Shown here one piece after another: positions 6,848 through 31,004 of a stretch of DNA of 35,541 nt. The notes under the pieces were generated by a model, which worked only from the letters and a program-made list of their open reading frames with translations, did not search any database and had not been told where the DNA came from. The stretch is from Candidatus Iainarchaeum sp. (GTDB lineage: Archaea > Iainarchaeota > Iainarchaeia > Iainarchaeales > JAFCCJ01), in the NCBI GenBank assembly GCA_017610305.1, contig JAFCCJ010000005.1, positions 1 to 35,541 of the forward strand, given 5' to 3'. Numbering within the stretch: position 1 is the stretch's first letter; every line of letters begins with the position of its first letter. Both the position numbers and the translations under genes were made by a program.

Positions 6848-7705
6848 CTATCCTGATAAAATATCTTCAATGCAAAGTTCCTTCTCTTCCCCCGCCTGTT
6901 CGCAAAGGGCAACATTCCCTGTCTCATAAGCAATCCATGCAACACATGAATCCCTCCTTTCGCCCACCTTTTCGCAGAGGGAAACATCCCCTTTGTCCCT
7001 TGCAATCTCATAATAGCAATAATCACTGCTTTCCGCATTTGGGCAGAGTGAGGAATTGCCAGTTGTTATTGCAATCTCCCCATAGCAAAATTTGCTCCAG
7101 TCATAAACCTTGTCACATTCCCCCGGCATATCCAGGTCAACGGCATCAAAACAAAATCCCATAAACCTCCCTGTGTTTTTGCATAATGAGTTGTTGTCGG
7201 TTTCAAGTGCCATCAGGCAGTTGTCATGCTCATAGCTTGCCTCATCGCAGAGGGCGGGGTTATTGGTGCGTAACGCAACATCAACAACACATTCAGACCT
7301 GCTGCGCACAACTTTCTCGCAATATGAGGCATCCCCAGTATTGTATGCTATTTCAGTATAGCACAGCTCCCTTTGCTCAAAATCTTCAATCAGTTCACAG
7401 GCGTCATCCGAGTTTTTACCTGTACCAACCATATAAAGGCAGTAATCCTTTGAAACAAAATTATTTCCTGACAGGTCATCAATCCCCAAACACTCATCAA
7501 CAGTAAGCGTGGTTCCAAACTCAATTTCCTCATCAGGCTCAGGTTCCACGTAATTGGGAGAGTCCTTGGTAATTTCCCCCTTAAGATATTCATCCCCCTC
7601 ATATTCCTCATACCAGTCATCGGTTTCGCTTGGCTGGAAGAGGACATACAGTATTCCTGCAAGTATGATAAGGATTGCCGCAGCAACCAAAAGTTTCTTC
7701 TCCAT
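6848..7705 (-). CDS. Membrane-anchored protein with about 7-8 tandem two-Cys helical repeats
   Basis: N-terminal TM MEKKLLVAAAILIILAGILYVLF; acidic linker; repeats such as CYTEIAYNTGDASYCEKV, CYGEIAITTGNSSLCPNA, CYYEIARDKGDVSLCEKV, CVAWIAYETGNVALCEQA. ATG at 7705 preferred over 7723. Confidence 0.8.
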   Translation of the reverse strand: MEKKLLVAAAILIILAGILYVLFQPSETDDWYEEYEGDEYLKGEITKDSPNYVEPEPDEEIEFGTTLTVDECLGIDDLSGNNFVSKDYCLYMVGTGKNSDDACELIEDFEQRELCYTEIAYNTGDASYCEKVVRSRSECVVDVALRTNNPALCDEASYEHDNCLMALETDNNSLCKNTGRFMGFCFDAVDLDMPGECDKVYDWSKFCYGEIAITTGNSSLCPNAESSDYCYYEIARDKGDVSLCEKVGERRDSCVAWIAYETGNVALCEQAGEEKELCIEDILSG

Positions 7706-7728
7706 AAAATAAAAATAGCTCATCCACC

Positions 7729-9827: not shown

Positions 9828-10742
9828 TTAAAGCATCTGCGCCAGGTGGTAAACAGCCAAACTAGCAGGCATTAGAAAAGTCGCGTAAATAAGCGCCTTT
9901 TTCATGTTATTCTCCTGGTTTGCGATGAAAAGGCTGGCAATTATTGAATATTCTGCGATGTAGAGAATATTCCCAAGCAGGGCGGCATTTATTATCCCAG
10001 TTCGCTGTGCGGAATCCATCCCTATAGATAATTCGGCCATGGAGGAAAAATTCAGCCCATTTACCATCCCCACAAGCAACCCCAGAACAAGGGGGACAAT
10101 AATCCCCCCTGCAAAAAGAAGGGTGTATTTTTCCACAATTAATGTTGACATCCGCTGGCGAAGGATGTTGTTGGTTTCCATCATATCCTCCGCAGTTTCT
10201 TTCAGGATGTCGCACAAATCAGCGCCTGAATTATACCCTTGCACAAGCAGCCTTACAGCCCGCCCTATTATTTTTGATTTATTCCGCTTCGAAATATTCC
10301 TCAATGCTTCCTCAACAGATGCCCCCCTCTCAATTTCATTTTGGCATTTTTTGAATTCACTGGATAAAGAACCCTGTTTGGTTCCCGCAAGGTAGGAAAT
10401 TATTTTCATTATCGGCGTGCCCTTTGGAAAAACCGATGCCTGCAACAGCATATCGGGAATGATATTTTCCAACTCCCTTTTCCTGTTCTCATTTATGAAT
10501 GACTGGATTAAGTAGTTCAGGGGAAATATTAAAGTGGCAACAATAAATGGAACCGCAATTACAATTAATTCGCCAAAATTCAAGTAAAGCAAAATTGCAA
10601 GTGAAAGGAGGTAGAAGCCAACTGCCTGCAGGACGACAATTTTCCAGAATCTTTTAATTCCCCCATGAAAACCGTTTTGCTCCAGTACAAGTGAAAAGAT
10701 TTCTGCCCGCCCCCTGCCGAAAACATAATTTATTGCTTCCAT
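9828..10742 (-). CDS. Type II/IV secretion (GspF/TadC/EpdK-like) membrane platform protein
   Basis: T2SSF-type layout: TM pair, helical domain (FPKGTPIMKIISYLAGTKQGSLSSEFKKCQNEIERGASVEEAL), further TMs; adjacent to secretion ATPase. Confidence 0.8.
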   Translation of the reverse strand: MEAINYVFGRGRAEIFSLVLEQNGFHGGIKRFWKIVVLQAVGFYLLSLAILLYLNFGELIVIAVPFIVATLIFPLNYLIQSFINENRKRELENIIPDMLLQASVFPKGTPIMKIISYLAGTKQGSLSSEFKKCQNEIERGASVEEALRNISKRNKSKIIGRAVRLLVQGYNSGADLCDILKETAEDMMETNNILRQRMSTLIVEKYTLLFAGGIIVPLVLGLLVGMVNGLNFSSMAELSIGMDSAQRTGIINAALLGNILYIAEYSIIASLFIANQENNMKKALIYATFLMPASLAVYHLAQML

Positions 10743-10743
10743 A

Positions 10744-11544
10744 TTAATCCCTCATAAACAATGGCGTTTTATTTTTTATGTAGAAGAGAATGGAAATATC
10801 TATCAGCGGAAAAACAATTGCTGAAATTAACAGAACTTCAATTGCGCTGAACCCAATTTCCATAAACATGCTCCCCACAATCATAAATGCCTGAAACATT
10901 GCAGGAATTATTGCTGAAACTGCGATAAACATCAGCGAAAACACAACCAACTTCCCTGAAAACTCTTTCGCTTCTGCCTGCTGCCTTGCAAGCTGTTCCA
11001 TTGCAACCCGTTTCACTGATTCCCCGCACATTCTTCCTGTCCCCTGCTCATAAACATTTGCAAGCTGTGAAAGCGCCCTTTTCAGAATGCTCGAATCATA
11101 TCTCTCCCCCAAAGAGATAAATGCCTCCTGCAAGGATGCCCCCTTTGCTGAGACCTCAACCCAAACTTTTTGGAATTCCCTTGAAACCAGGCCATAGTCC
11201 TCTTTGCAGATATTTTTCAGCGCCTTTTCAAAGCCAATATTCGTGTTAAGTTCTGCACTGATTGCCATAAGTGCAAGGGGAAGGTCCTTTTCAATTTCTG
11301 CCGAAAGTTTTTTCTTTTTCAGCACAGGAAGATAGAGGAAGAAGCAAATCGCCGCCGCAAAAAACCCAATTGCAAACGCAAAACCAATAATTATTTCCTT
11401 GAAAAAAAGGGCATAAATAAACCAGAAAAAAACCGTTGCAAGAAGGGAATACTTTACTGAATTTAGCAGATATTTATTCAAATCTATATCCATCTGGGCG
11501 GCCTTCAGGTTGTTGGCAGTTGCATCAAAAATTTTATCGAGCAA
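10744..11544 (-). CDS. Type II/IV secretion (GspF/TadB/EpdJ-like) membrane platform protein
   Basis: T2SSF-type layout (LALMAISAELNTNIGFEKALKNICKEDYGLVSREFQKVWVEVSAKGASLQEAF) with flanking TM helices; abuts ATPase gene. Confidence 0.82.
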   Translation of the reverse strand: MLDKIFDATANNLKAAQMDIDLNKYLLNSVKYSLLATVFFWFIYALFFKEIIIGFAFAIGFFAAAICFFLYLPVLKKKKLSAEIEKDLPLALMAISAELNTNIGFEKALKNICKEDYGLVSREFQKVWVEVSAKGASLQEAFISLGERYDSSILKRALSQLANVYEQGTGRMCGESVKRVAMEQLARQQAEAKEFSGKLVVFSLMFIAVSAIIPAMFQAFMIVGSMFMEIGFSAIEVLLISAIVFPLIDISILFYIKNKTPLFMRD

Positions 11545-13338
11545 TTAAAATTCCCCCAGATTTTTGCAGAATTCCTCCAGGCTAAGGCCCTTCATTGAAA
11601 GATTCAGGAGGAATTTCTCCCTTTTTACCAGTTCTTTTTTGATTTTTGCCGCACTGAGATTGAATGTTCGCCCTATTTTTTCCATAAGCCTTTCACTCTT
11701 CCCCAGTTCTTGGAGAATTCCTTTTTGGTAATTATAATCAAATAATTTATTTATTCTAATCTGCCCTTTTTTCTCTTTAAGTTCGCTTATCTCAACAACC
11801 CTTCTCATTTCTTTTCTTGTTCTTTTCTTCAAATCAATATTGTTCCACCTCCTCTGGACAATCACCAAATCGATGGAAGCAAGGTCCATTTCCATTACAT
11901 CCATTTTCTTAAGCCTTGTAAGCGCCTCTTCTCCGGATTGCGCATGGAATGTTGCATAACTCCCCCTCCCCTGCCCTGCAAGGAGGGTGTCAATGAATGC
12001 ATGCACCTCCTCCCTATTTCTTACCTCCCCGACAATAACCCTGTCAGGCCGCATCCTTAAGGTGTCGGTTATCAATGATTGCATCCCGATATCAGATTCC
12101 ACGACCGTATTGAGGCTTAGCTTATGCCTGTGCGGAATTTTTATTTCCGGAGTTTCCTCGACAACGATAATTCGTTCATCTAGCGGGATAAAGCTGAACA
12201 GGGCATTTAGTGTTGTGGTTTTTCCTGAGCTTGTGTTTCCGCAAAGAAGAAGGGAGGAATCTGTCTCCAAAACCATCCAAAGAAAAGCCATAGCTTTTGC
12301 ACTTATTGTTTTCCCCAAAATGAGATTAAGGGGGGTGAATGGGTTTTTCCTGAATTTGCGGATTGTGAATGCCGGTCCTGAAAATGAAACAGGCTCAATG
12401 CATGCGTTGATTCTGCACCCGTCAGGGAGAACCGCATTAATCCTCGGGGTCTGAACACTCAATCTCCTCCCAATCTTCCTTGCCATTCTATTGACCAAAT
12501 TTTTTGCAAAGATTTCGCTTGAAAAATAAATGTTGCTTTCCATCCAGCCAAATGAGGAATCATAAATATAAACCGGATTTTCTCGCCCCAAACCAGTGAG
12601 TGCAATTTCCTCAATTTCCTCGTTCTCAAGGAATGCTGAAATCGGCGCAAACCGAAACGAAATTTCAGAGGCCAATTCTGCCAAATAATTCTCCTGTTCC
12701 TCATCAAGGGCTATGGAATTACGTTCGCATATTTTTTTGAGAACCACTTTAGTGCTTTTATTGCCGGCCCCATTTTCCTCCCTGAATTCCTCAAGCAATT
12801 GCTTTAGCAAAAATGCTTCCTGCCCTGTGAGCTCAGGAAAGCCATTTATGCAAAATATTTTCTTCCCGTTTCTCAGTTCTACTATTTCCTGATTGCTTCT
12901 GGTTTTTAGTGTCCTGCATTTTTCATGCTCCTCTATCTTCCTCATTCCCCAACCCATCAGATTATTTGCCACCTCCATCTCCCTCCAGGACCTTTTCAGC
13001 CTTATTGCCCCCTTTTCGCAGGCCTCAATACACTGCATAAAAAAGCCATTCCCGGCGCATAAATCGCACTTTTTTGCACCTCTCCCTGAAATTTCAATAG
13101 CTCCCTGCTCGCATGCCTTTGCACAGTCCCCGCATCCATCACACAATTCAATATCGATAGAGAGTATCCCTTCAGCAACCTCATAAATGGCATTTTTCCC
13201 ACAGCTCATAACGCAGGCAGCCTTTTCTGGCTTGCAATGGAGGCATTTTATTGTTGCGATGGATTCCAGTTCATTAGGGCAATTTTCCAGGCATTTGAGG
13301 CAATTATCGCATTTCCCCTCATCGACAATCAACTTCAT
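11545..13338 (-). CDS. Type II/IV secretion (GspE/TadA/EpdL/ArlI-like) ATPase with N-terminal polyferredoxin domain
   Basis: N-term four Cys quartets (CDNCLKCLENCP, CLHCKPEKAACVMSC, CDGCGDCAKAC, CDLCAGNGFFMQCIEAC); C-term secretion ATPase with Walker A GNTSSGKTTT, EETPEI, RMRPDRVIVGEVRNREE, YATFHAQSGEEALTRL. Single uninterrupted ORF. Confidence 0.93.
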   Translation of the reverse strand: MKLIVDEGKCDNCLKCLENCPNELESIATIKCLHCKPEKAACVMSCGKNAIYEVAEGILSIDIELCDGCGDCAKACEQGAIEISGRGAKKCDLCAGNGFFMQCIEACEKGAIRLKRSWREMEVANNLMGWGMRKIEEHEKCRTLKTRSNQEIVELRNGKKIFCINGFPELTGQEAFLLKQLLEEFREENGAGNKSTKVVLKKICERNSIALDEEQENYLAELASEISFRFAPISAFLENEEIEEIALTGLGRENPVYIYDSSFGWMESNIYFSSEIFAKNLVNRMARKIGRRLSVQTPRINAVLPDGCRINACIEPVSFSGPAFTIRKFRKNPFTPLNLILGKTISAKAMAFLWMVLETDSSLLLCGNTSSGKTTTLNALFSFIPLDERIIVVEETPEIKIPHRHKLSLNTVVESDIGMQSLITDTLRMRPDRVIVGEVRNREEVHAFIDTLLAGQGRGSYATFHAQSGEEALTRLKKMDVMEMDLASIDLVIVQRRWNNIDLKKRTRKEMRRVVEISELKEKKGQIRINKLFDYNYQKGILQELGKSERLMEKIGRTFNLSAAKIKKELVKREKFLLNLSMKGLSLEEFCKNLGEF

Positions 13339-13437: not shown

Positions 13438-13692
13438 ATGGCTACCAAACAAATAAATCTGAAAATATCCAAAAACCTTTACGATTCTGCCGAATCATTT
13501 GCCGATAGTTACGGGTACAGAAATGTGCAGGATTTGTTGATGGAATCATTGAGGGAGAAGATTTTCGAAAAAGGCGATTTCGATGAATTCTTTAGCAGTA
13601 AGGAAATAGAACTAATTGATTCCCTTATTGAAAAGTCCGTGAAGAAAAAGAAATTTGTTGATGAAAAAGAGATTATGAAGGCATTGGAATGA
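13438..13692 (+). CDS. Antitoxin (RHH/RelB-like)
   Basis: 84-codon ORF MATKQINLKISKNLYDSAESFADSYGYRNVQDLLMESLREKIFEKG (ribbon-helix-helix-like N-term); overlaps the next gene by ATGA. Confidence 0.85.
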   Translation: MATKQINLKISKNLYDSAESFADSYGYRNVQDLLMESLREKIFEKGDFDEFFSSKEIELIDSLIEKSVKKKKFVDEKEIMKALE

Positions 13693-13979
13693 GCTTCAAA
13701 ATTAAGGCTCTGGATTTCTTCCTTCGACAAATTGAGAAATTGGACGAAAAAAGCAAGAGAATAATAAAGCAAAAAATCCAGATTATTAAGGAGAACCCTT
13801 TCAAGTTCAAGAGAATCCATTCAAAAAGATTCAACAGGGTTTTTAGGGTAAGGCTGAATCTTAAGGGCAAAGAAACAAGACTGATTTATGTTGTGCTTGA
13901 ACCAAATATTGTAATTGTGTGTCTTCTTGAAAGGAAAAATGACTACAGAGACCTTGAAAAATACCTATCTAAAATCTGA
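13689..13979 (+). CDS. RelE/ParE-superfamily toxin
   Basis: DFFLRQIEKLDEKSKRIIKQKIQIIKENPFKFKRIHSKRFNRVFRVRLNLKGKETRLIYVVLEPNIVIVCLLERKNDYRDLEKYL. Confidence 0.88.
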   Translation: MSFKIKALDFFLRQIEKLDEKSKRIIKQKIQIIKENPFKFKRIHSKRFNRVFRVRLNLKGKETRLIYVVLEPNIVIVCLLERKNDYRDLEKYLSKI

Positions 13980-13984
13980 AAATT

Positions 13985-14857
13985 TCATCCCTGAATTTCA
14001 ATCCCATTATTGGTTATTTTATATGGGACCATTTTCTTCACATGGTCGCTGCTACGCAGCTTGAGTATTTCAAGGGCATTCTCTCTTCTCTCATTTTTCT
14101 TCAAATTGTAAAGCACAATAACCCCATCAGCTAAAAATTCCTCTGTCCCTGTCCTGCTGTAAACTGTCGGGTCCTGTTCGGTTTCAGCAAGCACAAAATT
14201 CACCGAGTTTATTTTCTCAAAAGTCTCGAATAATTTCCTTATGTACTTCCTGTAATTCTCCTTGTCATCGAAGGCTATGGAAAGTGCTGAAAGGGAATCA
14301 ACAACAACCCTGTCAGGAACAAATGGCAAACGAATTTTCTTCAGGGGAATTCTTAATCCGCCGCTGGTTTTCAGTATTTCTTCCTCCATCGAGCGCGAAA
14401 TTTTTGTCGGGTCGAATTTCAATACGGCAATCTTCCCGGCCTTTTCAAGCTTCTGGATATCCCAGCCAAAATTGTTTTTCATATGCTTCTTAATTTTCTT
14501 TGGCTCTTCCTCAAATGAGATATAGATTCCTTTCTCCCCCTTCATCGCCCCGTTGTAAAGTGACTGCAGACCAAAAGTCGTTTTTCCTGTTCCGCAACCG
14601 CCGGAAATAAGTATTGTTGAGCCACGTTCAATTCCCCTATCTCGTATAAGTTCATCGAATTTACTCACTCTTGCAGGAATTACATCGTCAACAACTTTTT
14701 TGGCGTCTTTGTAATGGTCAAAAATAATCAGTGAGTCCTCAAATTCCCCGTCTTTTCTCTCAATTGGCTTTTTAGGTTTAGGTGGTTTATCGCTCCCTGA
14801 AAGAAAACCCGTTCTTTCGCTAACCCATTCCTTAAACCTATCAATGAATTCAACCAT
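13985..14857 (-). CDS. KaiC/RadA-superfamily ATPase (archaeal KaiC-like)
   Basis: FDELIRDRGIERGSTILISGGCGTGKTTFGLQSLYNGAMKGEKGIYISFEEEPKKIKKHM; VVVDSLSAL Walker B. Confidence 0.9.
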   Translation of the reverse strand: MVEFIDRFKEWVSERTGFLSGSDKPPKPKKPIERKDGEFEDSLIIFDHYKDAKKVVDDVIPARVSKFDELIRDRGIERGSTILISGGCGTGKTTFGLQSLYNGAMKGEKGIYISFEEEPKKIKKHMKNNFGWDIQKLEKAGKIAVLKFDPTKISRSMEEEILKTSGGLRIPLKKIRLPFVPDRVVVDSLSALSIAFDDKENYRKYIRKLFETFEKINSVNFVLAETEQDPTVYSRTGTEEFLADGVIVLYNLKKNERRENALEILKLRSSDHVKKMVPYKITNNGIEIQG

Positions 14858-14900: not shown

Positions 14901-16697
14901 CTATTTCTCCTTTAATTTCGCAATTTCCTCATCCAGGACCTTTAATTCCATTTCATACTTTCCCATGCCGTCCTTGAACTCGACCTTGGAAATTGAGGTT
15001 TCGTCAAAGTATTTCCTCTGCAATTCTGTCTCCAGTTCCTCGACCTCCGTTCTCCTGCTGATGAGCTTGCCAATACGCCTTCTCTGAATTATGAAAAATG
15101 CGGTAATCATCCCCACTGAGATGAGAACGGCGCCAACAATCGCAATTATTGCAAGGTTTTTCATAATGTCAAAAACAATGCTCTTCCCGGAAATAAGGAT
15201 TGATTTTTCAACAAAGTTTGAGTTTCCATATTCATCCTCTGCCCTCACCTCAAACTTCATTTCCCCCTCAGCCTCTTCCTCAACAAAATAATCTCCTTCA
15301 AACAGCCCAACACCAACGGCATTCAGAATTATCTCCCTCCCATTGATAAGTGCGATTACAGTTCCCTTTTCAATAAAATCCAGCGAACCATAGCTCACAT
15401 CAACCTCAATAGGGATTGTGTCCCCCACCTTATATCGCTTCTCTCTGGGCTCAATAATCTCGATAGAAAGGGCGATGGGTTCAATGGTGGTAAAAAATGT
15501 TTCCGAACCACTAAACAGCAGATTTTCAACCTCCTTTCTAGCACTGATTCCAAGACTTCTTTTACCCAGTGGTTCGTCTCTGGGAATCTTATAAAGTGCC
15601 GAATACTGTCCGCTTCTAACCTCGACAAGAGAGACTGTTTCATCACCCATAAGAATCTTCACATTTGCCCCCCTGATTTCCTCCTCAGTCCTGTCGGTTA
15701 CCCTTAAAATAAACTCTATCTCTTCTCCCCGCATGTAGCTTTTTTCCAACCCCTTGATTAATTCAATTTCCAAATGTGATTCAGGAATGGGTTCCCTGAC
15801 AAGAATGCTCTTCTCCAGAGATGCGCTGTTGTTGTTCAGGTCAAAACCTTCAATACTTACAAACCAGATGCCGGGTTCTTCAAGAAAGTTTGTATGGTAA
15901 TTATACAAAAATTTTCCGTCACTTTCAGAAATTATTTCTGCCTCATGCAATGTTTCTTCTCCGGTTTTAAAAACAACTATCAAGGGAATGGAAATCCCCT
16001 TCTTATGTGCTTTAACATAGCCTTCAATATCAATAATATCTCCGAGGAAATAAATCCCCTCAATATCAAAATCGGCAGTTAGTTCAGGTTTGAAATTAAT
16101 TTCAATTGTTTCCTCATCCACCAATCCAATAAACTCGGCACTCACCACTACCTCTTTCTCCCCGCGTTCAAGGTCAACGGGTAACTCAATCCAGGTAGCA
16201 TATACATTATCGCTGATTAATTCATCCCCGTGCCTTCCGTCATTGAAAAGGGTCGTTGTTCCAAAAAACCCAGTTGCCTTAACCTTTGCACTGGCAATGC
16301 CTCTTCCATTGGCAGTAATTTCAACCCTAAGATTAACAAATTCCCCCCTCAGATACTGATCTTCCCCGTCTGGATTGATTACCTCTATTGTTATCGAGGT
16401 AGGCGTACAGTCAGCAGGGCAGTTACCATAACTTTCCCTTGTTTCGCACAAATCATTCCCGCAGCAATTGGTTTCAATTTGAATTGAGCAGATATCCTCC
16501 TCAGTGCAAGAGTATTCCCTGCAGCTTTTGCCGGGCACAGGCCCTGAGCAGGTTCCGCAGTCCACCGAACAGGTGCAGGAATTTTCTCCAGTGTCGCATG
16601 AGCCGTCTCCGCAGCTTGCTGCATTGACAGTGGGAATTATAACAGCTGAAAGAACTAAAAATAAGGCAATTAAAAAAGTGAATTTTTTATCATCCAT
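14901..16697 (-). CDS. Secreted/surface protein: signal peptide, Cys-rich CGDGxC module, Ig-like domains, C-terminal TM plus coiled cytoplasmic tail
   Basis: FTFLIALFLVLSAVIIPTVNAASCGDGSCDTGENSCTCSVDCGTCSG...; C-term TM NLAIIAIVGAVLISVGMITAFFIIQRRR. Confidence 0.85.
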   Translation of the reverse strand: MDDKKFTFLIALFLVLSAVIIPTVNAASCGDGSCDTGENSCTCSVDCGTCSGPVPGKSCREYSCTEEDICSIQIETNCCGNDLCETRESYGNCPADCTPTSITIEVINPDGEDQYLRGEFVNLRVEITANGRGIASAKVKATGFFGTTTLFNDGRHGDELISDNVYATWIELPVDLERGEKEVVVSAEFIGLVDEETIEINFKPELTADFDIEGIYFLGDIIDIEGYVKAHKKGISIPLIVVFKTGEETLHEAEIISESDGKFLYNYHTNFLEEPGIWFVSIEGFDLNNNSASLEKSILVREPIPESHLEIELIKGLEKSYMRGEEIEFILRVTDRTEEEIRGANVKILMGDETVSLVEVRSGQYSALYKIPRDEPLGKRSLGISARKEVENLLFSGSETFFTTIEPIALSIEIIEPREKRYKVGDTIPIEVDVSYGSLDFIEKGTVIALINGREIILNAVGVGLFEGDYFVEEEAEGEMKFEVRAEDEYGNSNFVEKSILISGKSIVFDIMKNLAIIAIVGAVLISVGMITAFFIIQRRRIGKLISRRTEVEELETELQRKYFDETSISKVEFKDGMGKYEMELKVLDEEIAKLKEK

Positions 16698-16745
16698 AGC
16701 TAACCCCTATAGCCATTAAACAAGTAAAAAGAACTATTTAAAGAA

Positions 16746-18473
16746 TTACTTTTGATGGGTGTAGATATAGTATGCAGCAATACCTATAATCACTACCACT
16801 GCAACAACAATTAACAGGGTCATATCCCCTGATGCTGCATCATCATCGCCGCCTGGCGGGGCAGTAATGGCCACACAAGTGCCTGCTTTACATTCATTTC
16901 CAAATCCGCAGCTTGTACTATCAGCAACCTGCACATAGCTACAATTGCCCTCTGAGCAGCTGTCATTCGTGCATGGATTGCCATCGTCACAGTTCACGCC
17001 TGCACAGCTTTCTACAGGAATTTCTTCCTCTTCCGCATTGCTTACAACCGGTGCCGAATAATCATTTAATGCGGCCTGGCTTACTTCCTCATCAATATAA
17101 TAACTGAAACTGATAGTTTCTCCTGGGGAAAGTGTTTTTGTGTCAAATTCTATGATTGGATCATCTAATAGAACTGAGAAATTCCCCCTTAGTTTGGTTG
17201 CGGTTTCTGCCGCTGATTTCGGAATTTCCTCAAGAATTTTAACATTTTTCAATGTTTTGCCGCTTGCGTTTGAAATGGTAAGGGTAATGGTTGCCTGATA
17301 GCTAACATCCCCCTCCGCAGAGGTAATTTTCTCAACAGTAACCTCTCTTTGGACGGTTGTTTTTCCCACAGCGGCACTTGCCTTCTCAATGGCGTTTGGT
17401 GAAGCTCCCACTCTTGTAAGCAAATCAACCATTTCTTGGGAGGTTGGTTTCCCTGTGAATGTTCTCTCCCTTAAGGTTTCTCTCTTCTGCTGTCCGGGGG
17501 TTGTTCCCTCACAATCTTCCTGGCAGCTGTTTGGGCCACTTCCATTCTCTGTTGGGTCGCATATTCCATCTCCGCAAACAATGGTTACAGTACAATCTTC
17601 CGGGCAGCTGCCCACACTTTCAGTCCTTGTGCATGCACCATCCCCGCAAACTTCAGAACAGTCCTCCGGGCAACTTGTTGAATCCTCGTCCCAATAACAG
17701 GTTCCGTCACCGCAGTATGGTCCACTCCCCCCCCCGGTGCGGTCAGCAAGTGTAAATGTTATGGATTTTGTTAGCGTATTCTTATCGCCATCCATTGCCT
17801 TTAAATATATTGTATGTGCTTCTGCAGATACATTTCCAAAATTATAAGTTAGATTGCCCGCGTTATTTACTTCCACGCCCGCAACATTGCTGTCAAGGGA
17901 AACGAAATAAGTATCTATTGCCGGATCCTCAAATGCAGAATAAGTCATGGTAAATGGAGTAACATATGTATTTGTGCCTGATACTGGGAAAGTAATTGTG
18001 GGGGTTGACTCAAACTTAAACGTATAAAGTGAGGAGCCAACATTGCTGTCCTGAACCTGCTCAGTGCCGACATTAAAGTCCGAAATATTTATGTCGATGT
18101 AATAATTTCCGTCAGCGACATTATTGACATCAAGCCAGCTGTAACCGCAGTTGGTCATTGTGGTGAAGTCCGTTGTTCCATTACAGCTAATTACGGCATC
18201 AACAATATTTCCGTCATAAATTAAATTATCCAAGCCACCAGCACTAGTAGAATAGTAAATCGCAATTGAAAGATTTGAATCAGTCGCATTTGCGGAGACA
18301 TTTAAATCCAGAATATTGAAGTTAATGTCCAATGCCCCGGTTGAGGCATAGCCATAATTAACAACAAAATTGATATCTGTTTGAGGCTGATTCAGGGCAG
18401 CACCGGCAGAAACAGTTGCAGCCATCGCAATTAAAATCGCAAAAATTAACAGTATCTTTTTAGTAAAACCCAT
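16746..18473 (-). CDS. Secreted/surface protein with three CGDGxC...CxxDC repeats, juxtamembrane domain and C-terminal TM
   Basis: MGFTKKILLIFAILIAMAATVSAG signal; CGDGTCYWDEDSTSCPEDC, CGDGACTRTESVGSCPEDC, CGDGICDPTENGSGPNSCQEDC; TM MTLLIVVAVVVIIGIAAYYIYTHQK. Confidence 0.87.
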   Translation of the reverse strand: MGFTKKILLIFAILIAMAATVSAGAALNQPQTDINFVVNYGYASTGALDINFNILDLNVSANATDSNLSIAIYYSTSAGGLDNLIYDGNIVDAVISCNGTTDFTTMTNCGYSWLDVNNVADGNYYIDINISDFNVGTEQVQDSNVGSSLYTFKFESTPTITFPVSGTNTYVTPFTMTYSAFEDPAIDTYFVSLDSNVAGVEVNNAGNLTYNFGNVSAEAHTIYLKAMDGDKNTLTKSITFTLADRTGGGSGPYCGDGTCYWDEDSTSCPEDCSEVCGDGACTRTESVGSCPEDCTVTIVCGDGICDPTENGSGPNSCQEDCEGTTPGQQKRETLRERTFTGKPTSQEMVDLLTRVGASPNAIEKASAAVGKTTVQREVTVEKITSAEGDVSYQATITLTISNASGKTLKNVKILEEIPKSAAETATKLRGNFSVLLDDPIIEFDTKTLSPGETISFSYYIDEEVSQAALNDYSAPVVSNAEEEEIPVESCAGVNCDDGNPCTNDSCSEGNCSYVQVADSTSCGFGNECKAGTCVAITAPPGGDDDAASGDMTLLIVVAVVVIIGIAAYYIYTHQK

Positions 18474-18530
18474 GGCAAAATATAACACTTAAGTTATTTA
18501 AATACCTTTCGGCAGTATTCGGAATTAGAT

Positions 18531-20353: not shown

Positions 20354-23300
20354 TCAGCTGCTGAACCCCAACACTCCCGCTGAATTTGAATTCCCTGAAA
20401 TATTCTGCTCTGTTTCAGCAGTTAAATTTTCGATTTTTATGTTGTAGGCGCCATTTGCCTGCAGCCCGCTGACTGTATTCTCCACAGTTTCGGTTGCAGT
20501 GTATTGATACTGCAGGTTATTTTGCATGCAGGTGTTTATTGTTCCGAGAGAAATCGTGCAGGCTTGCGCGTCAACATTGCATTGCTGGAAAGAGCCTGCA
20601 AAAGCGCCCATTCCAGGGCATAAATCAGGGTTGTTAAGATGCAAATCGCCATTTACCGGGTCAACAAACAGGTTTGCTGCCTGCGATTCAGTAAGTTTCA
20701 CAGAACCTAGCTCGTAATAATACGGGGCTTGCTGCACCTGTTCAAAGCTAAGGCATCCATCATCACAGTCATATTGATCATGGTATCTTAAATAGGTCGA
20801 ACCTGGATAATATGCGCAGTTGCGATTGGAACTGATTTTCGTATAGTCCAGTGCCTCATCCACGACATTAATGGTAGCATAACTTGAGCAATTAACAAAG
20901 ATATTGTCGCTAATTATCCTATTAGAAACATCATTATCGTCCCTAAATTCTAAAGCTGCATTGTTGATGCCAGTGCAATTATAGAATGTGTTATTGTAGT
21001 ATTTGTTTGGCACATCATAAAAGTCCCATCCATCTGGATATCCTGGCCCAACAGAGCCTTCATGAACTCCGTTGGCAACATTATAAACAAGATTATTGTA
21101 AAACTCAAGCCCATCCAATGCCCATATGCTTACAGCAACAGAGCAGTCATGGAAAACATTGTCGTGGATATAATATGGCCCATGGTTTAGGTATTTGATT
21201 TTTATGCAGCGGGCAAGCCCGCTTGCGTCATAAATATGGTTATTCCGGATTGTAACATTAATCCCGTAATTCGGGCCCCAATTATAGCCGCCGGGCATTG
21301 CAAAAATCCCTGCTGAATTTTGGCTGTCATGTCCTATGTCATAAATAGTATTATTTTCAACAATTACATTGTTTATCATCCCAATCATAATCATGCCTCT
21401 GTTGCTGCATACTGGATTATTTACACATGCACTCATCCCATGCAAAACATTATTCCTGATTATTATGTTCTCCCCGATAAGCTCGCCAACAATCATGTCA
21501 AATTTAATTGCGCCTGAACAATAATTGCTGGTCCCAGGGGTTTCCCCTATATTTGACATTTCAAATCCGTCAATAATGATATTATTTGTCCTGTAATCCG
21601 GGCCATCAGCGAGAAAATTCATGGGGCAGTTTCCAGTATTTTTTGCGTCAAGGTGGGGCAATTCCCCAGGATATGCCTTGAAAGTAATCCATGCATCTGC
21701 TGTTCCGGAAGCAGTTATCTTTGGTGTGCCGCCACTAACATCATAATATCCCCCGCGGAAATAGACAATATCCCCTGCCTGGACAAGAGTATAAGCTTGC
21801 GTTATATTCCACGGGTTTTCAAAACTGCTGTCCCCCTCATCAGCCCTGTTGCTTGCATACTTGCAGTGTTCGGGGGTGGTTTCGCAGATTCCCCCTTCCA
21901 AACTCTGCTGCCAGACACCATCAACACAATAACCACTATCAACTATCCCTTCACATGCAATTACATTTGGCTCAATACAAATTGTGCTGCTTCCAGGATC
22001 ACATGGGCCTGCAGGATTTGCGCAATCTGGATTTGGTTGTCCAGTGCCACAATAACAAGTTCCTACATTTTCAGGAGTAATCTCAATTGAATCCGGGCAT
22101 TCTACAGGCCCGATATATTCCGTACTAAAAGCAATATCATCCCACCACATTGGTTTCTCTTCCGGCTCAGTCCAAGGCACACTATCTAAATTATCCCCAA
22201 TACTTATTGAGGTAAGGTGTCTAGAAGCATCATCTCTTAGCAATACATCATTCATGTAAAAAACTTTCTCTCCATCAATCCACACAATTAATATTCCATT
22301 ATTTACTCCCTCATCATTTAATTTTATGTATGTTTCCATAGAAATCCAGTCGCCCTCGCCATAATTCTTAGTACATGCATCTAAACCAGTCATGCAAACT
22401 TCAGGATTAGCATAAACAGTTCTTCCATCGGTAAGGGGGTAAATATTGAAAGCCTTCCGAGCCCATACGAATTTTACAATAATATCATCTGGGTCACCGT
22501 GCTTCAAAGGTTCCTCTGGCAAAATCCATCTTATTCTTGATAGTTTCTGACCAGTACCATCTGTCCAAGTCCAAGTAGGGTCATATTTGATGTACCACCT
22601 ATAATATAACTCATCGTGAGTTCTTTCAGGAAGCCATTTAATTATGCCGCCAGAAGTATTATGCCTATCTTCATGATTGATTACCATTGCTGCGCTATTT
22701 AATCGTCCATTATAATGAATAACTTCTGTATCTGGTTTTCCATAAGTGCTCCAACCCGCACTCTCCCCAATATCCCATTTTCCACCAGAAGAAGTGATTA
22801 AATCAGAAGTATTAGTATTCCAAATAATATAATCATCTTCAGGAGCCATATCTGTCCAAGAATCAAAATCATCCTCGAAGATTATTCCTTCTGATGGGCA
22901 TTGGAGGTCAGAACCATCACAATCTTCATCGATTCCGTTTCCGCAGGTTTCTGTTTCAGGAAAAACTGTTTGCTCGCAGGGCCCCCATTCTTCTGCTGAG
23001 CAGGTTTCCTCCCCCTCTGAACAGATTCCATCCAGGCTTGTTTGGCAGGCCCTTGTTACTCCCTCACTGCAGCCCCCAACTTCCTCAACTTCCAGACCAT
23101 TCAAAATAAGGCCAGCACCCGGATTAGAGTTGTAAATCCTTATTGTCAGCTGCCCATCTGTTACTGAGGTTTCAAATGTTTGGGTTGAGTGGGTTCCATA
23201 GGGCAGCATAAGGTCAGTGATTACATTCTGCCCTTCGATATCGGCATTCATAAGTCCTTGGCTAAATACTGCATCATAGAAATGCAGGGTTACATTATAC

Positions 23301-23581
23301 TCGCCATTGGGAACATCAATAAGAAACTCATGCTCAGCATTTATCTGGTGCAAATCCCTTTCCAAATCATTCCCCAGTTCCCGGTCGGTTGCATATATGC
23401 TGGTTAAATTATCCCAGCCATAGCCGATTGATGGACTGTATGCGTCTGCCGTGAACTGAGTATAGCCCGACATTACTGGGGAGCTGGCTGTGCCGAAATC
23501 GAGTTTTAGTGGGAGGGATGCAGTTGCTGAAACCAATCCCGAAAGGAGTATTACGGAAATTAATAGAATCGCTTTTTTCAT
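20354..23581 (-). CDS. Large secreted multidomain protein: malectin-like domain, MopE-type Cys motif, lyase/LamG-like beta-sandwich, right-handed beta-helix
   Basis: MKKAILLISVILLSGLVSATA signal; LKLDFGTASSPVMSGYTQFTADAYS; CGNGIDEDCDGSDLQC; NNIIIDGFEMSN.../IIIRNNVLHG/VIVENNTIYD/VTIRNNHIYD beta-helix rungs. Confidence 0.85.
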   Translation of the reverse strand: MKKAILLISVILLSGLVSATASLPLKLDFGTASSPVMSGYTQFTADAYSPSIGYGWDNLTSIYATDRELGNDLERDLHQINAEHEFLIDVPNGEYNVTLHFYDAVFSQGLMNADIEGQNVITDLMLPYGTHSTQTFETSVTDGQLTIRIYNSNPGAGLILNGLEVEEVGGCSEGVTRACQTSLDGICSEGEETCSAEEWGPCEQTVFPETETCGNGIDEDCDGSDLQCPSEGIIFEDDFDSWTDMAPEDDYIIWNTNTSDLITSSGGKWDIGESAGWSTYGKPDTEVIHYNGRLNSAAMVINHEDRHNTSGGIIKWLPERTHDELYYRWYIKYDPTWTWTDGTGQKLSRIRWILPEEPLKHGDPDDIIVKFVWARKAFNIYPLTDGRTVYANPEVCMTGLDACTKNYGEGDWISMETYIKLNDEGVNNGILIVWIDGEKVFYMNDVLLRDDASRHLTSISIGDNLDSVPWTEPEEKPMWWDDIAFSTEYIGPVECPDSIEITPENVGTCYCGTGQPNPDCANPAGPCDPGSSTICIEPNVIACEGIVDSGYCVDGVWQQSLEGGICETTPEHCKYASNRADEGDSSFENPWNITQAYTLVQAGDIVYFRGGYYDVSGGTPKITASGTADAWITFKAYPGELPHLDAKNTGNCPMNFLADGPDYRTNNIIIDGFEMSNIGETPGTSNYCSGAIKFDMIVGELIGENIIIRNNVLHGMSACVNNPVCSNRGMIMIGMINNVIVENNTIYDIGHDSQNSAGIFAMPGGYNWGPNYGINVTIRNNHIYDASGLARCIKIKYLNHGPYYIHDNVFHDCSVAVSIWALDGLEFYNNLVYNVANGVHEGSVGPGYPDGWDFYDVPNKYYNNTFYNCTGINNAALEFRDDNDVSNRIISDNIFVNCSSYATINVVDEALDYTKISSNRNCAYYPGSTYLRYHDQYDCDDGCLSFEQVQQAPYYYELGSVKLTESQAANLFVDPVNGDLHLNNPDLCPGMGAFAGSFQQCNVDAQACTISLGTINTCMQNNLQYQYTATETVENTVSGLQANGAYNIKIENLTAETEQNISGNSNSAGVLGFSS

Positions 23582-23628
23582 GTGAAATAATAACCACAAA
23601 CTAATATATTAGCCTTAAGGGAAGAATT

Positions 23629-23652
23629 CTGGAATTTCATTGGAAATTCCAG
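23629..23652. repeat. Perfect inverted repeat (10-bp arms, 4-nt spacer)
   Basis: CTGGAATTTC-ATTG-GAAATTCCAG in the divergent intergenic region, just upstream of TATA-like aaaatataaat of the GGR-family gene. Confidence 0.8.
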
Positions 23653-23695
23653 GGAAAATATAAATAATCTTCCATACCAATTATTTCGGGATAAA

Positions 23696-24829
23696 ATGTA
23701 TATGGTTGCTGTTGTTGGGGGAGGTCCTGTAGGATTGCATCTTGCAAGGAGATTGCAGGAGGAGGGTTGGGAAACGGTTCTTTTGGAGGAGCATTCTGCA
23801 ATAGGAAAGCCCGTGAATTGCGCAGGCCTGATAAGTGCCTCAGGGGTTAAGGGCCTAAAACTGAATCTTGGGGATTCCCTTGTTAATGAGATTAAGGGGG
23901 CGAGAATTTTTTCCCCGCACAATGAAATGCTTGAGGTTAAAAGATCAAGAACTGTCGCATATGTAATTGACCGGGAAATGTTTGACAAGTCGCTTTACAA
24001 GGAGGCGAAGGAAAAGGGGGTTGAGGTCAGGCTCAACACAAAACTGATTGATGTCAGGAATGAAACCCTTTTTGTTGAGGCCGGAACAAGGGGAGAGCTG
24101 CTGAAAGCGAAATATGTTGTCGGCGCCGATGGAGTCACCTCCAAAATGAGGACTTTGGTAGGCGTTAACACCTCCCCAAAGGACTTTGTCCACGCCTATC
24201 AGGCAAAGGTAAAAGGGAACTTCAACAAAAAATTTGTGGAGGTTTATTTCAGGGATTATGCGAAGGGTTTTTTCGCGTGGGTAATTCCTGAGAGTGAGGC
24301 TGTTGCAAGGGTTGGCATTGCCACAAGCGAGGGAAATGTAAAGAACGCGTTTGACCTATTTGTTTCGGAAAAGAATTTCACAGGGTCATTTTATTCAAAA
24401 TCAAGCGCACTAATTCCCATAGGCTTGCCCCCAAAAAACCTGATTAAGGACAACCTGTTTCTTGTGGGGGATGCCGCCTTCCAGACCAAGGCATCAACAG
24501 GAGGGGGGGTCATTACAGGAATAACTGCTGCCGAGGCATTGTGCAAGGCAATTGGCGGCTATTTCAAGGAAAGAACTTCCCTTAGCAGCTACTATTCGCA
24601 TCTGAAACCCCTCAATAAGGAGCTGAAAAGCCACTGGAAAATCCATAACTTCCTTTCAAAAATGGGCGAGGACAAAATGGACAAGACATTCCGCAACATA
24701 AAGAATGCCGGAGTGGAAGAATTCCTGAATGAGTATGGGGACATGGACAGGCCGACCTCGTTTTTGGGGAAGGCATTAACAAAACCAAGTTTGTGGAAAT
24801 TGGCCCCATTGGCGCTGCGGTTTTTGTGA
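23696..24829 (+). CDS. Geranylgeranyl reductase family FAD-dependent oxidoreductase
   Basis: VAVVGGGPVGLHLARRLQEEGWETVLLEEHSAIGKPVNCAGLIS; VGADGVTSKMR; NLFLVGDAAFQTKASTGGGVITGITAAEAL. Confidence 0.93.
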   Translation: MYMVAVVGGGPVGLHLARRLQEEGWETVLLEEHSAIGKPVNCAGLISASGVKGLKLNLGDSLVNEIKGARIFSPHNEMLEVKRSRTVAYVIDREMFDKSLYKEAKEKGVEVRLNTKLIDVRNETLFVEAGTRGELLKAKYVVGADGVTSKMRTLVGVNTSPKDFVHAYQAKVKGNFNKKFVEVYFRDYAKGFFAWVIPESEAVARVGIATSEGNVKNAFDLFVSEKNFTGSFYSKSSALIPIGLPPKNLIKDNLFLVGDAAFQTKASTGGGVITGITAAEALCKAIGGYFKERTSLSSYYSHLKPLNKELKSHWKIHNFLSKMGEDKMDKTFRNIKNAGVEEFLNEYGDMDRPTSFLGKALTKPSLWKLAPLALRFL

Positions 24830-24846
24830 AATTTAAAGAGAAAATT

Positions 24847-27123
24847 TCAACTCTTTCTTAAAATAATTAGTACTGAAAGCAAAACGAAAACAACTAATAA
24901 TGGATTTATCTCAGCTACTGATACAGATTTAAATGTGCTGACTGATATGTATTTACTTTGCTCATTATTACTAAGATATTCCTCACCAATGCCTGGCGGA
25001 TCAACGCGCATAGTTATTTTATAACTGCCAGGGTCAAAAGAGGTCAAGGTTTCAGTAAAGCTAACTGTAGTTTCGTTTAAAGCCACAATAGTTTCAGTTG
25101 AAGAGTCAGAAAGCAGTGGTGTCCCGTCTAAACTTTTTATTTCAAGATAAACAGTGGCATCCAAAGCATCGGAATGATTATTCGCCACTGTTGCTGAAAC
25201 CTTTAGCTGGTCTTCGGAATCAAAACTCGAAGTTTCTTCCCAAACTGAAACTTCATATTTTTCAGTTATGATATTTTTCAGAATAAAAATATCTTCCGGA
25301 ATTGGGGGCCCTACTCCGGCAAAATCCAGGGTTAGCAAAGCAGAATCATTCCAAATGGGATTTCCCAAATCATCATATATAGTAATGTCAAGTTTGAAAT
25401 ATTCATCGATTGAGGGGGTCTCATCAATGTCAATACAAATCTCCCCTGTTATTGTGTCTCCCCTATTTACAGTATTTGCGGTTGGCACAATCACCCCGTC
25501 TACTGTAACATCCATGCCTGAACTGGATTCGCTTTCAATAGTCATAATATCTGAGGTTATCTGCTCTGTAATCAACTCGTCAATTATTTCAGGTATTTCT
25601 GAAGGGTCGGTATAAGGTCTTGCAATCCCGCCATTTGCGTTTGTAACAATAGTTATTTCCCCTGCTGGGCAGAGGGGAAATCCTGCGCAACCAGCATTAT
25701 CACAGCTGGGATCGTGATCAGTTGAATAAATTGCCGAAACAGTTATCTCTTCGGGAACAGCATAGTTTTGTATTTCAGTAGATAGATAATTTATAGGCCC
25801 AAATTTTGCTTCCTGGCAATCGTTGCTTGCATCGGTGAGTAATATGATTAATTTTGATGCCTCCTCTCTCCAGGACATCTGAGGAATGGTGCGCCCAGTA
25901 GGCTCTGTTGCTGATGCATCAATAGTGTTTATTATGAAATCAGCCCATGGTTCATGCCCGCCACCGACCTCAACACTGCCAATCTTACTGGCGACGAGCA
26001 GCAAATTTGTAGTCAAATCCTCCCGATAAAAAAACGGGTATGTCGCGCTAGTTCCCTCCATTATTGAAATCCCGATCTTGAGACAATCTTCCGGCGGATT
26101 TTCGGCAGCATTGCAGAGGGTAAGTACTGTGTTTGCAATAAGTACAATAGAACCCATTACAGAATCAATCTCCTCCTGCATGCTTCCACTCGCATCAAGC
26201 ACAAAAACCAAATCAAGGGGTTTTGTAATTATTGAACTTGAAAGATTGTTTTGGATTTCATAACCCAAACAATATGGAGTTGTGCAGGGAGGTCCCCCAG
26301 GGCATGGATCAATTATCAAATCATCCAAAGCATTTGCAGGATAACAAGTATCATAACCTGCAGGTGCAACCTCATCAAGGCACAGGCTAAATTCAAGATC
26401 CCCTGCCTTATAAACCCTTATTATGAAATTTCCTGTTGTGGTGCTGCCCCCGTCGAAAGCGTCCACCGACACTGCGCAATCTTCATAATCTCCTGCAATT
26501 GTCCTACTCGGGGCACCAATATTAACAGAATCCCCGTTAAGTTCGATGGTAGAGCTGGAAAATAAAGAACCTCCCCCTGCTGTGCAATCATCAGCATCAA
26601 GACTTGAAAAAGTTAAAGGATCATTGTCTCTATCAAAGAAAAGATCGTTGAGATTAAATGTTGCCCCGGCGCTGTCTTCAAATAGAATGGCTCTAACCCC
26701 GCTATAAAATTCAGGGGGATCGGAGGTATTTATTACAAGTATGTCTTGAAGCAAATCATAATCTATTTCAATTGGAGTAGCAGTGTTTGCCCCAACTACG
26801 ACAATATCATATTGCCCATCCTCAATATTGCTCCATGAAGCAGTGTGAGTATAGGTTCCGTCATTGGATTCAAGTACCAGTAAAGAATCATAAAAAGGGT
26901 CTGACAACAAAGGGTTAGTTATATTCATGTGCCCAATAACAACCCGATATCCTAGAAGGTCAAAGCTGGGATCTGGCTCGGCAATTGTAAAAGTGATATC
27001 AAACGCTGGCTCAGTAGGATTTCCGTCAGTTATGGTGGTTGGATCATCTATAGTTACAAGCGGAGCTGCGTTTACAAGGGAGAACAACCCGATAATCAAA
27101 AATAAAACTATAATGTGTCTCAT
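24847..27123 (-). CDS. Surface protein with von Willebrand factor A domain, CARDB-like region and C-terminal TM
   Basis: Signal peptide; MIDAS DASGS in LDLVFVLDASGSMQEEIDSVMGSI; ADFIINTIDASATEPTGRTIPQMSWREEASKLIILLTDAS; C-term INPLLVVFVLLSVLIILRKS. Confidence 0.9.
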   Translation of the reverse strand: MRHIIVLFLIIGLFSLVNAAPLVTIDDPTTITDGNPTEPAFDITFTIAEPDPSFDLLGYRVVIGHMNITNPLLSDPFYDSLLVLESNDGTYTHTASWSNIEDGQYDIVVVGANTATPIEIDYDLLQDILVINTSDPPEFYSGVRAILFEDSAGATFNLNDLFFDRDNDPLTFSSLDADDCTAGGGSLFSSSTIELNGDSVNIGAPSRTIAGDYEDCAVSVDAFDGGSTTTGNFIIRVYKAGDLEFSLCLDEVAPAGYDTCYPANALDDLIIDPCPGGPPCTTPYCLGYEIQNNLSSSIITKPLDLVFVLDASGSMQEEIDSVMGSIVLIANTVLTLCNAAENPPEDCLKIGISIMEGTSATYPFFYREDLTTNLLLVASKIGSVEVGGGHEPWADFIINTIDASATEPTGRTIPQMSWREEASKLIILLTDASNDCQEAKFGPINYLSTEIQNYAVPEEITVSAIYSTDHDPSCDNAGCAGFPLCPAGEITIVTNANGGIARPYTDPSEIPEIIDELITEQITSDIMTIESESSSGMDVTVDGVIVPTANTVNRGDTITGEICIDIDETPSIDEYFKLDITIYDDLGNPIWNDSALLTLDFAGVGPPIPEDIFILKNIITEKYEVSVWEETSSFDSEDQLKVSATVANNHSDALDATVYLEIKSLDGTPLLSDSSTETIVALNETTVSFTETLTSFDPGSYKITMRVDPPGIGEEYLSNNEQSKYISVSTFKSVSVAEINPLLVVFVLLSVLIILRKS

Positions 27124-27166
27124 TTGTCAATAATAAGGATAAACTGATATATAAAAGTATAGAAAA

Positions 27167-27261
27167 TAGCCCCGAGGAGATTCGAACTCCTGTCACTGCC
27201 TTTCCCTATTTGGTCATAAAATATCAGAGGGCAGTATCCTTGGCCACTAGACTACGGGGCT
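27167..27261 (-). tRNA. tRNA-Gln(CUG) with 22-nt intron at canonical 37/38 position
   Basis: Acceptor AGCCCCG/CGGGGCU, U8A9, D-arm GUCU..GGAU, anticodon stem CUGCC/GGCAG, T-arm AGGAG-UUCGAAU-CUCCU, discriminator A. BHB: CUCU/AGGG central helix, bulges GA^U and AA^A, helix AUUU/AAAU. 73 + 22 = 95 nt; spliced loop CU-CUG-AA. Confidence 0.93.
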
Positions 27262-27326
27262 GTTAACTAAGAAATTCTGCTGGAAAAGATTTTTAATCTC
27301 TCCCCCCCTACTTATTCTTGGTTCAA

Positions 27327-27683
27327 ATGCTGGATTTCATAATATCAACAATACTTTTCATCCTTGTTGTGACCATTCCGGGCTATGCAATTACACTGGC
27401 ATTTTTCACCAAAAAGGGGGAAATTGACCTTATTGAGAGATTGACCTTCTCACTTTTATTCTCAATAATTTTCCCGCCGATTCTTATCCTGATTGAGAAC
27501 CAGTTATTGGGAATTCCGCTGGATTTCATTTCAGTAGCCAGCACTGAAATATTCCTTATTATCATTTCCCTGCTGGTTTACTTTGCAAGGATAAAAAAAA
27601 TCAATGCCCCGGAAATTTTCTACAAATACATTCCCGCGGTGAATGAGAAAGATGCGCAGGAATTAATCCCTAAAATAAGCTAA
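27327..27683 (+). CDS. Small membrane protein (DUF1616-like)
   Basis: MLDFIISTILFILVVTIPGYAITLAFFTKKGEIDLIERLTFSLLFSIIFPPILILI; ATG 27327 preferred over TTG 27318. Confidence 0.7.
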   Translation: MLDFIISTILFILVVTIPGYAITLAFFTKKGEIDLIERLTFSLLFSIIFPPILILIENQLLGIPLDFISVASTEIFLIIISLLVYFARIKKINAPEIFYKYIPAVNEKDAQELIPKIS

Positions 27684-27692
27684 TTTTTTACT

Positions 27693-30600: not shown

Positions 30601-31004
30601 AACTCGTATCCTGCCCCGCCATTGTCTTCAGTTGATGAATCCCCGACAACTATAAAATTAATTTGATCCGCATCGGCCAAGCCTGAAATTGTGCCAGTAA
30701 AAGTCATTGCAGTGGTGCCATCAGTCCAGCTATCCAAGGTGGTTAAGGAAACACTGGTATCCCCTGTTGTTGCAAGTTCTCCATCAGTCTTGTAATATAG
30801 GTCCGCAGGGCCTAAATTGTCGGCATCATCCAGTACAGTTATAGTAACAGTGATATCTGCCGCTTTTAGGAATTCAGAATTATCAAATGCAGTTGCAGTA
30901 TTGGTGCCATCAGAAGCCGAGGATACCGTAATGCCGGTGACTTCAGCCTGTACGCTGATTGCAAGGACTAATAATAGAAGACAAAAAAGGCCAAATTTTC
31001 TCAA
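27693..31004 (-). CDS. Large surface protein with FN3/Ig-like repeats, juxtamembrane domain, C-terminal TM and cytoplasmic tail
   Basis: MRKFGLFCLLLLVLAISVQA signal; FN3-type repeats (PDEITGLTVTELTDTSVQLDWTASGAGDLDHYNIYQ; PSTPSDFTATARSDGTIRLEWDASSDDEVGMGSYEVYRS); TM IDLVTIIIIVIIILVVLALIFVMFG. Confidence 0.9.
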   Translation of the reverse strand: MRKFGLFCLLLLVLAISVQAEVTGITVSSASDGTNTATAFDNSEFLKAADITVTITVLDDADNLGPADLYYKTDGELATTGDTSVSLTTLDSWTDGTTAMTFTGTISGLADADQINFIVVGDSSTEDNGGAGYEFQVDGGVPTISALDPADAGTSSNVDQPITATLADTGSGIDEATISMNVEGTDYTTADAELAYSAGTVTFTPSTSFTDAQEVNITLDVSDALGNAATQASWMFTISAADTTAPDEITGLTVTELTDTSVQLDWTASGAGDLDHYNIYQETSAITEVSSLTAVGTTDSSTTTYEADSLTTNINYYFAVTAVDGVPNENPIPAETVSISPGTPAAPGKPSVSAGNGAVTISWSAHGEVDVTEIKIYRITAGDAWDANTSVTTVATGTTEYTDSGLGNGTGYYYKISAQDALGHVSAASESSDLVTPVESGCSLGTPNVESSTHTHNSWTANGSVDFSWASVSSATGYSFVFDQSSSTTPNETIDFPATDYTESKADGIFYFHLRACTGSCCGSTNHFTVKIDTTGPSTPSDFTATARSDGTIRLEWDASSDDEVGMGSYEVYRSVFRDFGISDSGTHKLETTTNTYFTDDDADLRANTTYYYKLRPLDDLGNPGSMTPERNARSEIGCDITINIDVDDYVREGTVDVSVSSAGGRMYDTDVKLKFDGKTTRLEDNKNNTSLISTSFTVDSGETGNAQILIMGYDSEDNLCDALADFYIDASEPSITWEAPEGNAELSGIVDLKADASDAGSGIKTVNFYYKSTGDWEKISGVTKKTGGNYVYSWDTSELADGQYELKAEAKDKAANADEAIISVSLKNNGESPPVPPPSEETTYKTAKYNFSSDNLVGLVNATNLIGAQSEKAVELLSENGVERNLTITKKGTDSLATYDAKIEIKFTNNSGETKTIQIIEFVPKSFAEDSSEISGGFTVIESDPIIKFSATVDAGESATFSYELRNISRNKADALIDDGVINDFIAPPVPLPSGETPRFKQAAGGGIDLVTIIIIVIIILVVLALIFVMFGSGLFVRHSYKKYKKGKSEGAGPWGLNDAVKDVHKGDSIWSNVSRELDDWFNAKEKGDNDSGKFAWRPGRD

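Follow-up and report, generated by a model that had tools for sequence, protein, structure and literature searches.

Pilus and secretion motors are usually considered to be tuned by nucleotides, by c-di-GMP or by partner proteins. Among the solved ATPases, the closest to the one described here are the archaeal GspE (afGspE, 2oap) and the archaellum ATPase FlaI/ArlI (4ii7, 4ihq), with which it has in common the fold of nearly the entire ATPase part, N-terminal portion included, the Walker A, Asp-box, Walker-B and His-box motifs, and an adjacent gene for a T2SSF partner. Unlike these proteins, it carries about 117 additional N-terminal residues, which make up a ferredoxin domain; the identity is about 25% and its locus contains two T2SSF genes. 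The TadA/CpaF and Epd-type pilus ATPases belong to the same VirB11-like family, and in their systems, as at the fusion locus, two TadC-like genes come after the ATPase gene. TadA, in contrast to the fusion, has no ferredoxin, and no flp/tad gene set was seen near the fused gene. In bacteria, c-di-GMP is bound by the N-terminal domains of assembly ATPases, and these domains probably bind the stator as well (PMC5013675, PMC11656802). The MshEN (GSPII) domain of MshE/PilB is an N-terminal accessory domain serving as a regulatory input on an assembly ATPase, which makes it comparable to the fusion; it binds c-di-GMP and is of another family than the fused ferredoxin domain. No mention of ferredoxin, iron or redox was found in either of these two papers.

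The added domain has its own relatives: NrfC/PsrB, DmsB, NarH, HycB3/4 and AorA present the same sixteen cysteines in four quartets. In double ferredoxins such as NarH and DmsB, the cluster ligands are paired in an interleaved manner, motif I with motif IV and motif II with motif III. These subunits serve oxidoreductases, whereas the fused domain is joined to a motor ATPase and, compared with double-ferredoxin electron-transfer subunits, is compact (about 115 amino acids). AorA and HycB have been described as double ferredoxin folds (PMC10413684). No description of a ferredoxin-pilus ATPase fusion was found in the open-licence literature searched, which lacks most subscription papers, and the 2016 census of archaeal type IV pili leaves ferredoxin unmentioned (PMC4858521); such an absence is weak evidence for novelty.

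The fused gene and its ATPase

The window, that is the whole stretch of 35,541 nucleotides that was analysed, contains on its minus strand a reading frame starting with ATG at 13338 and extending to 11545 over 597 codons with 0 internal stops, while the plus strand of 11545-13338 holds no comparable frame. The earlier note, which had reported one uninterrupted frame of this length, was exact in its coordinates, and the strand is now established as minus. ORF reading, Pfam and PDB matches describe the 597-residue product (11545..13338) as a predicted four-cluster ferredoxin domain followed by a secretion (pilus assembly) ATPase. The double-ferredoxin domain, delimited by Pfam, alignment and profile match, occupies residues 1-117 (12988..13338, minus strand), where the Pfam models Fer4_6, Fer4 and Fer4_7 each pass their cut-offs; its 16 cysteines form quartets at residues 10/13/16/20, 32/35/42/46, 66/69/72/76 and 91/94/103/107. 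According to the alignment, residues 118-159 (12862..12987, minus strand) are a poorly conserved linker, except for a conserved LGW-like motif (MGW, 128-130), and most unfused orthologs start just before the corresponding motif.

Residues 160-597 (11548..12861, minus strand) constitute the secretion ATPase portion, of afGspE/FlaI type and including its own N-terminal helical part; the T2SSE family (PF00437) matches the protein at 4.4e-34. It contains, on the minus strand, the Walker A motif GNTSSGKTT (367-375; 12214..12240), the Asp-box region E394-E398, the Walker-B region RMRPDRVIVGEVR (428-440; 12019..12057) and the His-box histidine H465 (11944..11946), and, when the protein is aligned with 16 archaeal relatives, most of these motif residues prove invariant. 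Among PDB sequences, too, afGspE (2oap) matches best. The AlphaFold model of the full-length protein, built on 17 rows, is confident for the larger part of residues 200-597 and aligns structurally with 2oap and FlaI along about 476-509 columns, displaying the VirB11-like fold with an N-terminal part and a C-terminal RecA-like domain (Foldseek 1e-36 with 2oap over 476 columns). For the ferredoxin domain, no reliable model was obtained (pLDDT 41 when modelled by itself, under 50 within the full-length protein). As afGspE can be aligned over 476 columns with the modelled ATPase portion, the ferredoxin is an extra domain: to judge from sequence and model together, it has been added N-terminally to an archaeal secretion ATPase that is complete in itself.

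This revises part of the earlier note. Its contrast with the usual helical N-domain does not hold, the ferredoxin preceding a complete ATPase and not replacing its N-terminal part. Its assignment to an Epd/Tad-like secretion ATPase stands as regards a complete secretion ATPase, the nearest solved proteins being archaeal GspE and archaellum FlaI. The best NCBIfam models are those of the archaellum ATPase (218.6 bits, under the ArlI/FlaI equivalog cut-off of 550 bits) and of TadA (158.6 bits, under the TadA/CpaF cut-off of 373.15 bits); since both scores fall under their cut-offs, the ATPase is by this measure a member of neither equivalog.

Cysteine losses in the ferredoxin domain

Fused orthologs were found 28 times in two DPANN phyla, with 23 in the 92 genomes of the own (Diapherotrites-like) phylum and 5 in the 302 genomes of the Micrarchaeota phylum. 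That the fusion is genuine, as first proposed from the window alone, is borne out by the recurrence of the architecture in these 28 genomes, well beyond chance. The profile of the fused domain matches NrfC (2vpw) at 1.4e-16, which agrees with the DmsB/NrfC-like four-cluster spacing noticed at the outset. The nearest free-standing relative found in the source genome is a ferredoxin linked to an aldehyde:ferredoxin oxidoreductase (AOR); at its locus, an AOR-like gene recognised by eye (L007:2-1872) is followed by this free-standing four-cluster ferredoxin. In motif II, six residues separate the second and third cysteines (Cys 35 and 42) of 24 of the 28 fused N-domains, with the signature HCxPxxAxC (slightly variant in G090), as against four residues in NrfC and in the AOR-linked ferredoxin.

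The inferred ligand sets of the putative clusters are A {10,13,16,107}, B {32,35,42,76}, C {46,66,69,72} and D {20,91,94,103}. All 16 cysteines are retained in 15 of the 28 fused proteins. Eight others (families f4 and f22/g46) are without exactly C10, C13, C16 and C107, and four more (f22/g47) are without these residues plus exactly C46, C66, C69 and C72. In the remaining one, the micrarchaeal G401, motif III is deleted, leaving clusters A and D complete; this deletion aside, no quartet was lost in simple sequence order among the 28 proteins. If cysteines were lost at random, the probability of hitting any one of the four sets would be p = 0.002, and that of hitting a second set, given the first, p = 0.006. 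The losses fit the interleaved I/IV and II/III pairing of double-ferredoxin subunits, the cysteines being gone in exactly those sets in 12 homologs. Because the lost sets are the ligand sets of single interleaved clusters, the [4Fe-4S] clusters are very probably real, up to four in number, and three or two in the lineages with losses. As read from the alignment, this cluster-wise loss is the strongest support for cluster formation short of chemistry, and it much strengthens the initial prediction of up to four [4Fe-4S] clusters. The pattern is new evidence, and it also bears, from sequence only, on ligand pairing in double ferredoxins. The loss of cluster A in f4 and f22 may have happened once or twice, a topology with all these proteins in one clade having an AU p of 0.338. 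In the two-cluster homologs (f22/g47, L201-L204), we also observed two extra conserved cysteines (ECVKGVLC in most), neither of which corresponds to any of the sixteen ligands.

Proposed redox input and rival functions

The fused domain is best explained as a redox-responsive accessory input at the N-terminus of an archaeal type IV pilus/type II secretion-like motor, a reading to which we would give slightly less than an even chance. The earlier note had already suggested that such clusters could link pilus building with electron flow or with the redox state of the cell, and a link of this kind is still what the sequence data favour most. The domain is accessory and the motor does not need it, because many lineages run the same motor without the domain. 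The c-di-GMP-binding N-domains of bacteria offer a precedent for an input at that position of the fusion. The double ferredoxin, its motifs paired in the interleaved manner (I/IV and II/III), would hold as many as four [4Fe-4S] clusters; should the motor form a hexamer, as its relatives do, the base of the machine would be ringed by up to 24 of them. These clusters would be reduced by the low-potential ferredoxin pool, and disabled when reductant or iron is scarce or when an oxidant is present; their state could alter the conformation of the N-domain or its contacts with partners, and so gate assembly, the domain being placed like the c-di-GMP-binding N-domains through which bacterial PilB/MshE are controlled. 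A motor subunit carrying up to 16 Fe and 16 S would suggest that the cellular redox state controls it directly. POR is part of ferredoxin-reducing metabolism; it is encoded in 22 of the 23 fused genomes of the own phylum versus 37 of the 48 unfused ones, and this co-occurrence with the fusion is only suggestive (Fisher p = 0.087, uncorrected for phylogeny). No COX1-type oxidase was found in the 92 own-phylum genomes, and no sensor partner gene was seen travelling with the fusion.

Against redox gating speaks the persistence of proteins with three or two predicted clusters, which would also fit a structural role. The clusters would then be redox-silent and staple a docking domain that binds the membrane platform or another partner, much as Fe-S clusters play a structural role in some nucleic-acid enzymes. 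Single clusters were lost in turn while the domain and the fusion persisted, and on many occasions the entire domain disappeared, which would be tolerable for a structural aid. However, the fold from which the domain stems is one dedicated to electron transfer, and the retention of all sixteen ligands in 15 of the 28 homologs represents far more iron than a staple needs, so that we consider a purely structural module unlikely, if a serious competitor to a redox input.

The same double-ferredoxin fold is found in the electron-conducting filaments of AOR and HDCR (PMC10413684), and an AOR-like gene with a four-cluster ferredoxin exists in the source genome as well; on these grounds, the ferredoxin ring could take electrons from soluble ferredoxin and deliver them, at the base of the pilus, to an acceptor in the membrane or on the surface. 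Such a conduit is improbable, since the conserved neighbours of the fused gene include no cytochrome and no membrane redox gene and since the piecemeal cluster loss seen in twelve homologs would not be expected; that loss disfavours an electron wire as the sole role of the domain. It would be just as surprising if the domain were a metabolic scaffold by which POR or AOR, enzymes that depend on ferredoxin, are brought to the membrane machine. The nearest free-standing relative of the domain adjoins an AOR-like gene and POR is almost always present in fused own-phylum genomes, but what is shared with the AOR-linked relative is the general fold only, and POR is common in the unfused genomes too. 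No oxidoreductase gene recurs beside the ATPase-T2SSF genes, in the window or in related loci.

The redox-input reading can be stated in a fuller form, which we advance as a tentative proposal, possible though short of probable: a redox-gated pilus motor, with a multi-cluster ferredoxin built in to set its activity. It would be the first assembly ATPase of this kind, ancestral to two DPANN phyla and then dismantled cluster by cluster, and would tie the deployment of filaments to reducing power. DPANN archaea often depend on contact with hosts, and filament building may be tied to redox state in two groups of these tiny archaea. The homologs with 16, 12, 8 and 0 ligands form a natural evolutionary experiment with predictable iron contents, and this series allows the role of each cluster to be tested without engineering.

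Distribution, origin and gene neighbourhood

Within the own order (80 genomes examined), 13 orthologs have the ferredoxin domain, and most unfused ones begin just before the conserved LGW-like motif; the remainder of the own phylum contributes 10 further fused orthologs (families f22, f23 and f24). In the Micrarchaeota phylum, 106 of the 302 genomes give a strong match, and the domain is present in 5 of those whose N-termini were examined, a survey that leaves out G201 (match from profile position 65). Orthologs without the ferredoxin domain far outnumber the fused ones, and the phyla of Nanoarchaeota type (377 genomes) and Hydrothermarchaeota type (23) gave no strong match at a strict E-value cut-off.

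Two separate reading frames in relatives, the sign of a false fusion according to the earlier note, were looked for in two ways, with tblastn across 48 orthologous loci and with a profile across the 92 genomes. None was found except for G081, a fragmented assembly where the ferredoxin domain and the ATPase core lie on two different contigs; unfused orthologs start after the domain. All domain matches with E < 1e-20 in the 92 genomes stand in a fused frame, apart from the separate-contig match in G081, and no free-standing copy of the domain was found near unfused orthologs. On the ATPase tree, the fused proteins do not form one clade (10 changes of state), and forcing them together is rejected (AU p = 2.8e-5). 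The N-domains look alike across both phyla. The simplest reading is what looks like one old fusion followed by repeated loss; gene transfer between lineages could also have produced this distribution. The identity between homologs is 36-53% for the N-domain, 36-52% for the ATPase core and 11-32% for the linker; since the N-domain diverges at the rate of the core, unlike the linker, it is, on these values, under comparable constraint. The source genome being a fragmented draft of 89 contigs, an assembly chimera or a misannotated fusion of two genes was also considered, and was ruled out as a practically negligible explanation, since 28 genomes from two phyla carry the same fusion, each time on an independent contig, and both halves have diverged equally.

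Downstream of the fused gene lie two genes for T2SSF platform proteins on the minus strand, the first, TadC/ArlJ-like, abutting the ATPase gene (10744..11544, PF00482 9.8e-08) and the second at 9828..10742 (PF00482 1.7e-13). Within the own order, the loci of most orthologs keep the gene order ATPase-T2SSF-T2SSF, as do those loci of the same class and of Micrarchaeota that have sufficient flank. No pilin gene was identified at the fused-gene locus; genome-wide, there are three prepilin-peptidase-like genes (Peptidase_A24 matches) and five more T2SSE homologs. Upstream, the minus strand encodes a KaiC-family ATPase (13985..14857, PF06745 9e-55). KaiC-family genes are known associates of archaeal type IV pili (PMC4858521), so this protein is a possible regulator of the fused motor; its association with the fused ATPase is not conserved among the relatives examined.

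Several other features of the neighbourhood were observed. The interval separating the fused ATPase from the KaiC-like gene holds, on the opposite (plus) strand, a pair of small genes (13438-13979) that resembles a toxin-antitoxin module, with a weak ParE-like match. Further upstream, genes for large proteins of the secreted or surface type form an island on the minus strand (14901-18488 and 20357-31004), with CARDB/vWA-like, fn3/Big_7 and polysaccharide-lyase-like domains, and in some relatives homologs of the pair at 14901-18488 lie immediately upstream of the ATPase gene. In the own phylum, a gene of the PAC2 family (proteasome-assembly-chaperone-like) often follows the two T2SSF genes (L041:10014-10760; L196-L200, L202-L204), and none was seen at that operon position in the window. 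Finally, the minus strand encodes at 6851-7723 a membrane-anchored protein whose cysteines recur at regular intervals and which matches no Pfam family; it is conserved in several related loci.
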